A stretch of DNA of 39,136 bases. It comes from Parcubacteria group bacterium GW2011_GWA2_43_11. GTDB taxonomy: Bacteria; Patescibacteriota; Minisyncoccia; Phycocordibacterales; UBA12088. The stretch is taken from positions 1-39,136 of the forward strand of contig LCFC01000003.1 in assembly GCA_000998805.1 (NCBI GenBank). Reading direction: 5' to 3'. The position numbers were made by a program, and so were the translations under genes. This document shows positions 17,761 through 18,027 of the stretch, piece by piece. How positions within the stretch are numbered: the stretch's first letter is position 1; every line of letters starts with the position of its first letter. Below the pieces are notes generated by a model, which was not told the origin of the DNA, searched no databases, and saw only the letters and a list, made by a program, of their open reading frames with translations.

Positions 17761-17877
17761 CCCGTTAGAGACAGGTCACGAAGTGACCGTCGATTAGATT
17801 AGTAATGTTTTGTATTTTTATCATATTCTTTATTTTGAAGTACACCTAGAAACATTGCTGTTTTGGTCTTTAACGGG
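17761..17877. mobile_element. Family 2 non-coding element, first of tandem pair
   Basis: CCCGTTAGAGACAGGTCACGAAGTGACCGTCG ... TTTTGGTCTTTAACGGG; left end abuts CAT start codon at 17758-17760; followed by ATTCAT. Confidence 0.75.
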
Positions 17878-17883
17878 ATTCAT

Positions 17884-18027
17884 CCCGTTAGAGACAGCCG
17901 AGCTGTATGTTTGCACAGGTGCAAACATACAGCTCGGCGTCGGTTAAATTAATAATTGTTCGTATTTTTATCATATTCTTTATTTTGAAGTACACCTAGA
18001 AACATTGCTGTTTTGGTCTCTAACGGG
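17884..18027. mobile_element. Family 2 non-coding element, second of tandem pair
   Basis: CCCGTTAGAGACA + 42-nt palindrome + CGTCGG ... TTTTGGTCTCTAACGGG; near-identical right half to 17761-17877; followed by ATTCAT. Confidence 0.75.
17897..17938. repeat. 42-nt perfect palindrome (20-bp arms, 2-nt centre)
   Basis: GCCGAGCTGTATGTTTGCAC AG GTGCAAACATACAGCTCGGC. Confidence 0.9.

Follow-up and report, generated by a model that had tools for sequence, protein, structure and literature searches.

Hairpin-bearing repeats in a Parcubacteria genome point to a very small transposon-like element encoding a GIY-YIG nuclease

Background

The Ssn family (Neisseria Ssn/NTS) reportedly comprises site-specific, single-stranded-DNA nucleases of the GIY-YIG superfamily and is said to act as a modulator of transformation; on this description, the family would be the closest biochemical relative of the protein described below. 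In IS200/IS605 elements and integron attC sites, subterminal or folded hairpins are recognised by their shape in single-stranded DNA. CGTC palindromic repeats have been reported that have no dedicated transposase (PMC3733652). The literature that we searched contained no element joining a GIY-YIG protein to terminal repeats, MITEs, palindromes or REP sequences in bacteria.

Here we analysed a stretch of 39,136 nucleotides (the window; contig LCFC01000003.1, forward strand) of Parcubacteria group bacterium GW2011_GWA2_43_11, in which copies of a short repeat carry different hairpins at one and the same place. Our results suggest a very small transposon, of a kind that has apparently not been described and that must keep a hairpin at one of its ends. 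Statements on the entire home genome (G000, Patescibacteria-type; an assembly of 929 kb, 77% complete) rest on searches and on fetched stretches.

Hairpin copies in the window and in the home genome

The motif CCCGTTAGAGACA is found 11 times in the window when up to two mismatches are allowed, against 0.74 expected occurrences. The non-coding copies of the repeat and their flanks are:

16434..16560, minus strand: non-coding MITE copy, hairpin slot 16448-16465 (GCCCCGCCTTGGCGGGAC)
17760..17878, minus strand: non-coding MITE copy, hairpin slot 17774-17788 (GGTCACGAAGTGACC)
17756-17759 and 17879-17882: target duplications TTCA of the 17760..17878 copy
17883..18028, minus strand: tandem non-coding copy, hairpin slot 17897-17938, 20-bp stem
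17879-17882 and 18029-18032: target duplications TTCA of the 17883..18028 copy
8664..8727 (end approximate), minus strand: truncated non-coding copy, far terminal repeat missing

Direct reading of the four slots bore out the original prediction that each copy has its own self-complementary insert: GGTCAC-GAA-GTGACC with a 6-bp stem at 17774-17788, a 42-nt inverted repeat at 17897-17938, the GC-rich GCCCCGCC-TT-GGCGGGAC at 16448-16465 (7 of 8 pairs, with one C.A), and, in the truncated copy, GGTC-ACAGAG-GACC at 8677-8690, decayed to 4 bp. The 42-nt insert had been called a perfect palindrome; it is an inverted repeat as described, with 20 perfect pairs around AG, but it is 40/42 self-complementary rather than perfect. 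Near-identity of the rest of the element, also claimed, holds for the tandem pair (96 nt in common at 93%) but not for all copies, where conservation is limited to the terminal repeats and some 10-20 nt next to the slot, the remaining interior having diverged.

About 28 such copies are present in the home genome, with the ends CCCGTTAGAGAC...GTCTCTAACGGG, a length of ~120 bp and a hairpin beside one end only. With at most one mismatch, CCCGTTAGAGAC has 28 + 26 occurrences in this genome versus 3 for the reversed control, and the occurrences are mostly paired, 105-145 bp apart; every copy that turned up was retrieved and read. One locus (L049, G000 C15:21788-21830) is a minimal copy of 43 bp whose terminal repeats surround a GGTTCC..GGAACC hairpin, almost devoid of spacer. 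The 42-nt palindrome at 17897-17938 and a second copy of it (L048, G000 C15:15450-15491) differ by inversion of the loop centre, CACAGGTG vs CACCTGTG.

Other repeats were seen in the window. A dispersed repeat, GTGAGTAGTATTTTG...CAACGAAGAAATGCG, lies in both orientations at 12088-12171, 13831-13914, 24676-24703 and 29752-29793. Comparison of 191-642 with 1973-2424, at a spacing of 1782 bp, showed a 300-nt segment repeated at 87% and a 142-nt segment at 70%, which could be either a tandem gene duplication or a repeat domain.

The coding parent element and its nuclease

A longer element with the same ends lies in the window beside the truncated copy and contains one gene:

8379..8659, minus strand: full coding element of 281 bp, one GIY-YIG gene flanked by terminal repeats TCCCGTTAGAGACC / GGTCTCTAACGGGA
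8376..8636, minus strand: GIY-YIG nuclease ORF of 86 aa, PF01541 match, E 4e-17
8375..8378: 4-bp target duplication TTCA (TGAA on the minus strand), left of the coding element
8660..8663: target duplication TTCA, right of the coding element and adjoining the next, truncated copy
8393..8407: hairpin arm GGAAACGCTTGAGGC inside the ORF, 15-bp perfect complement of 8552-8566
8552..8566: other hairpin arm of the coding element, GCCTCAAGCGTTTCC

The nuclease ends in SLTG, which is encoded by the right terminal repeat; the stop codon, TGA, falls within the target duplication. A sister genome has, at a different gene, an element whose protein is 87% identical to this one, and the catalytic-type residues Y5, Y16, R26, H30, E62 and N76 are conserved in 98-100% of 64 element proteins. 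For the window nuclease, the closest solved structure is 1zg2 (UPF0213) and the match to TIGR01453 is weak, below the cut-off of that model. The domain search gave Pfam GIY-YIG only, plus a borderline T5orf172, with no DDE, HUH, Ser, Tyr or DEDD transposase in the element, and no second, longer element bounded by these terminal repeats was seen in the home assembly, as far as its 77% completeness reaches.

The slot of the short copies is separated by one T from the right terminal repeat, in the same place as the hairpin of the coding element, and the spacer to the left end is of similar length, so that a short copy looks like the coding element minus its hairpin loop. In the copy at 16434..16560 the ORF start TGTGGTATATTT is kept without mismatch and at the offset that it has in the coding element, 23; this is one of three copies matching TGTGGTATATTT with at most two mismatches near the original offset. 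Judged by this shared layout, we interpret the 120-bp copies as non-autonomous deletion derivatives (MITEs) of the 281-bp coding element. A point against this reading is that the hairpin stems of the MITEs differ in sequence from the arms of the coding element in the same genome.

A hairpin within the coding sequence

The arms of the coding elements are complementary far beyond the demand of the protein sequence. Over 59 elements a median of 12 bp is paired, versus 6.1 under synonymous-codon resampling, 45 of the 59 being individually at or beyond 1 in 60 under this null; in the window element, arms of 15 bp compare with 5.9 bp expected. The place of the arms is also constant: the left one starts about 88 nt from the left end, the two are about 145 nt apart, and the right one ends 13 nt before the last core base in 39/59 elements, the same pair positions showing GC, AT and CG in different elements. 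When folded as single strands, the coding form and the MITEs present a terminal stem, the hairpin and one unpaired T. As a small negative control, GIY-YIG paralogues of the home genome that lack terminal repeats (L057-L059) have arms of 6 bp only.

Target sites and start codons

To compare flanks, each of 71 elements was treated as N-CCCGTTA...TAACGGG-N'. Exact 4-bp flank duplications occur in 37 of them (permutation mean 11, maximum 20 in 2000 permutations) but in only 12 of 24 home-genome copies, and the commonest duplicated target is TGAA. The gene starts adjoining the elements in the window are:

7936..8379, minus strand: mscL (PF01741), start codon adjoins the coding element
15526..16434, minus strand: RimK-like ATP-grasp gene (ligase; PF08443), start codon adjoins a MITE
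17002..17760, minus strand: SpoU-family RNA methyltransferase (PF00588), start codon adjoins the tandem MITEs

Such placement at start codons follows from the target being TGAA. An ATG stands at the hairpin end in all 26 readable home-genome copies, and from 20 of these ATGs a frame runs for 60 aa or more, or off the locus, versus 15% of control ATGs in the same DNA. In 47/71 elements the nuclease ORF has no stop inside the element and stops at the first codon (TGA or TAA) of the duplicated target, which creates an ATGA or GTGA overlap with the next gene; in roughly 17 elements the old start codon is still present, 6 bp ahead of the core and in the reading frame of the nuclease. The comparison shows an element that spares its host by rebuilding a start codon where it lands. 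At some loci (L124, L138 and L141, for instance) the duplicated target is TTTA and the element lies inside the codons of a GFTLIE-like motif, the nuclease frame continuing into a pilin-type frame; judged by its sequence, the GFTLIE stretch resembles the cleavage region of a pilin-type gene.

Exchange of hairpins and movement among sister genomes

Of the 246 stem positions in the 41 slots read from both genomes compared here, the home genome and its sister G002, 231 are paired. Permuting the right arms among the slots leaves 161 paired positions on average and 198 at most, a comparison between related copies and not a strict p-value. The outermost pair is G-C in all 41 slots. About six stem types recur (GGTCAC/GTGACC, GGACAC/GTGTCC, GCCCCGCC/GGCGGGAC, GTCCCG.., GCTCCGC.. 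and the 20-bp stem), and the slots of G002 are mostly of the GGTCAC type. The window and G002 are co-linear, with an identity of roughly 70-90%, and at three orthologous sites the MITE frame is kept (79/90 bases in L043/L211, 78/90 in L051/L212, 76/92 in L035/L214) with a hairpin that is wholly different between the partners; the slot therefore turns over as a unit, in place. The proposal that pairing is kept while the sequence changes is upheld, and it is strengthened by these three swaps and by the arms of the coding elements. To call the slot hypervariable, as the original prediction did, is too strong: the variety is not endless and consists of the recurring types swapped as units. The original prediction had noticed neither that the copies are mobile elements placed on start codons nor that they have a coding parent with a GIY-YIG gene. 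The home genome also contains 21 CCGCC..GGCGG palindromes, some within slots and others outside the elements, so that possible hairpin donors exist. On contigs C2 and C8 (L228, L234), sequence similar to the GTGAGTAGTATTTTG...CAACGAAGAAATGCG repeat flanks palindromes of this kind.

Element sites differ among the sister genomes. The start of mscL has a coding element in the home genome, a MITE in G002 and no element in G004; G002 has a coding element at another gene, whose home-genome counterpart has none; and the tandem pair at 17761-18027 corresponds to a single copy with a different interior at the same site of G002. Among the home genome, G002 and G004 we found no strictly clean empty site, homologous at base level on both flanks: the mscL start of G004 has diverged, and where the home genome corresponds to the coding insertion of G002, the sequence upstream is not the same. 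Mobility and structure of the elements are well supported, the argument for mobility being an indirect one that proceeds from the differing sites. Elsewhere in the window, a 79-nt perfect inverted copy of part of a downstream ORF replaces part of another ORF (32081-32150 and 32834-32912); the sister genome has ordinary sequence there, and the arrangement resembles the outcome of template switching or else a chimera of the assembly.

Distribution across genomes

A scan of one genome per species yielded 80 close homologues of the nuclease, 72 of which are flanked by inverted ends. The distance between these ends is for the most part 272-283 bp, and almost all of them are built on CCCGTTA. The coding element was found in dozens of distant bacterial groups, including many Patescibacteria lineages, Omnitrophota, Desulfobacteraceae, Syntrophaceae, Schekmanbacteria, Nitrospirota, Planctomycetota, Elusimicrobiota and Cloacimonadota, and in one archaeal genome (Woesearchaeota); because nearly all of these genomes are metagenome bins, single host assignments can be wrong. 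The protein tree follows the phyla only loosely and is poorly resolved, for which reason transfer of the element between phyla is likely but unproved. No full-length homologue was found on phages, plasmids or viral contigs, and carriage by phages or plasmids was rejected.

Other GIY-YIG subfamilies within the same taxonomic order have this layout with other terminal repeats (ACCCTGTTAAATAA, AAACTTTTTACCTA and TCCCCCACCACTTTA); the one with ACCCTGTTAAATAA has a span of 284 and 12-bp arms. Seven loci of other GIY-YIG subfamilies (L086, L088, L091, L093, L097, L098 and L103) are bounded by different inverted ends, which measure 13-15 bp (10 bp in one case) and enclose about 280-300 bp. Several of them also have arms complementary over 10-13 bp, and they are probable sister element families.

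A model for the element

The observations that a mechanism has to accommodate are the terminal repeats, the 4-bp duplications, the start-codon placement, the fixed position of the hairpin, the hairpin exchange and a coding parent present across phyla. On balance we consider it probable that the hairpin copies are MITEs of an insertion-sequence-like element of ~280 bp that is moved by its GIY-YIG nuclease and has folded ends. The nuclease itself would quite probably cut the element, the target or both; to the conjecture that the ends are read by it in the form of a single folded strand, with the terminal repeats paired and the hairpin stacked beside them, we give an even chance.

Read along the nuclease gene, the element consists of a 4-bp target copy, T(or C)CCCGTTAGAGAY and a spacer of about 75 nt (the ORF start in the coding form), followed on the right by the hairpin, one unpaired T, RTCTCTAACGGGA(or G) and the second 4-bp target copy. 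Insertion takes place at (A)TGAA, usually a start codon. The original start codon is left on the near side of the element, where it often shares the reading frame of the nuclease. A new ATG (or GTG) for the downstream gene is formed from the last element base together with the duplicated TGA, the same TGA serving as stop codon of the nuclease in an ATGA overlap. The nuclease would cut at the border between element and target, and a staggered cut at TGAA followed by host repair would give the 4-bp copies. A difficulty is that GIY-YIG nucleases hydrolyse DNA and strand joining is not among their known activities, so that the duplication needs host repair or else unknown chemistry. If the ends are read as a folded single strand, the shape of the hairpin rather than its sequence would be kept; the exchange of hairpins may then be neutral turnover, by template switching or by conversion with palindromes dispersed elsewhere, and it would be tolerated since a stem of any sequence suffices as long as it starts with G-C.

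It is important to distinguish the conventional reading, that the gene is a passenger or self-regulator and a transposase encoded elsewhere moves all copies through their terminal repeats, which we consider unlikely. No transposase is known among GIY-YIG enzymes, DDE transposons typically have short inverted ends and make 4-bp duplications, and a further transposase could be missing from view since the home assembly is incomplete. Against this, the nuclease is the only gene in the 72 elements from many groups, the terminal repeat encodes its C-terminus and the arms of its ORF form the hairpin, and the home assembly showed no longer element with these ends. Even less likely, in our opinion, is a function at the RNA level, in which the hairpin in a 5' leader insulates, terminates or couples translation of the nuclease ORF and the downstream gene and the copies are kept for that purpose. 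All home copies do immediately precede an ATG that has their own orientation, two species retain copies at the same gene starts, and pairing survives the hairpin swaps; but the TGAA target already accounts for the placement at start codons, the same geometry of hairpin and terminal repeats is found in elements elsewhere, such as those in frame inside pilin-type genes at TTTA targets, and an Rfam match is absent.

Pairing might also be maintained by mutation instead of selection, quasi-palindrome correction through template switching rewriting the arms. The inverted loop orientation between the 42-nt palindromes speaks for such a process, and the CCGCC..GGCGG palindromes outside the elements could be donors for it. 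This explanation, to which we assign a low probability, has to face arms that lie about 145 nt apart in coding sequence and yet are paired at a fixed place in many lineages, a first pair that remains G-C, and the truncated copy at 8664, a single case, which has already decayed to 4 bp.

Returning to movement by the nuclease, the widest form of the proposal is a class of minimal autonomous transposons, of about 280 bp with one 86-aa GIY-YIG nuclease, that move through a folded single strand, whose coding sequence must keep a hairpin, whose stop codon is given by the target, and which hijack and rebuild start codons, the ACCCTGTTAAATAA, AAACTTTTTACCTA and TCCCCCACCACTTTA subfamilies being further families of it. 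This we put forward tentatively, its chances being slightly below even. If the nuclease does move the element, it would be among the smallest self-moving DNA elements, GIY-YIG would join the short list of enzymes that drive cut-and-insert mobility, and the abundance of lone GIY-YIG genes in Patescibacteria, often annotated just as 'GIY-YIG nuclease family protein', would be explained. The case also presents a protein-coding sequence constrained to hairpin folding and a selfish element that rebuilds a start codon. The question raised in 2013, of what moves palindromic repeats that have no dedicated transposase, becomes testable (PMC3733652).

Comparison with known systems

Several categories were considered and rejected. 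A riboswitch or other known structured RNA was discarded after 0 matches to Rfam covariance models in 8000-19000, a CRISPR-like array because there are tandem pairs only and no regular spacers, and a defence system because PADLOC gave no match. As to a conserved promoter inside the MITEs, several of them have TATGAT around offset 52, but it is absent from many copies and the interior is rich in A and T, so that we claim no promoter. An attC site or integron was rejected as well: the order RYYYAAC ... GTTRRRY is reversed, GTTAGAG is without the final Y and no integrase gene was seen.

The elements resemble IS200/IS605 and attC in hairpins that would be read by shape in single-stranded DNA, but the orientation of the repeats differs from that of attC, and IS200/IS605 use another enzyme class and make no target duplications. 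Selfish spread by a GIY-YIG nuclease would be shared with GIY-YIG homing endonucleases and group I intron nucleases, the weak TIGR01453 match being a further point in common, whereas here there is no intron or intein and there are target duplications and terminal repeats. With REP or CGTC palindromes and RAYT they have in common that palindromes scattered through the genome are tied to a small gene for a nuclease or transposase, and that hairpins stand beside short conserved tags (PMC3733652); the CGTC found on the 3' side of these hairpins may be a coincidence. RAYTs are HUH tyrosine transposases, in contrast to the linked GIY-YIG gene here, and the present unit has matching ends on both sides.

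Terminal inverted repeats bound the copies and the target duplication has a fixed length of 4 bp, as in insertion sequences and MITEs, with which the elements also share the shortness of the inverted ends and a coding parent accompanied by internally deleted copies. They depart from these in a parent of 281 bp with an 86-aa GIY-YIG protein, in a hairpin by one end only and in an ORF that has no stop codon of its own. The domain with its conserved catalytic residues Y, Y, R, H, E and N places the protein in the GIY-YIG superfamily. Terminal repeats, target duplications, insertion at start codons and deletion derivatives set the element apart from Ssn, which is not known to have them. Like Ssn, however, this is a small single-domain GIY-YIG protein tied to a sequence repeated many times in the genome, and single-strand specificity, as in Ssn, would fit the folded ends at which the nuclease would cut here.
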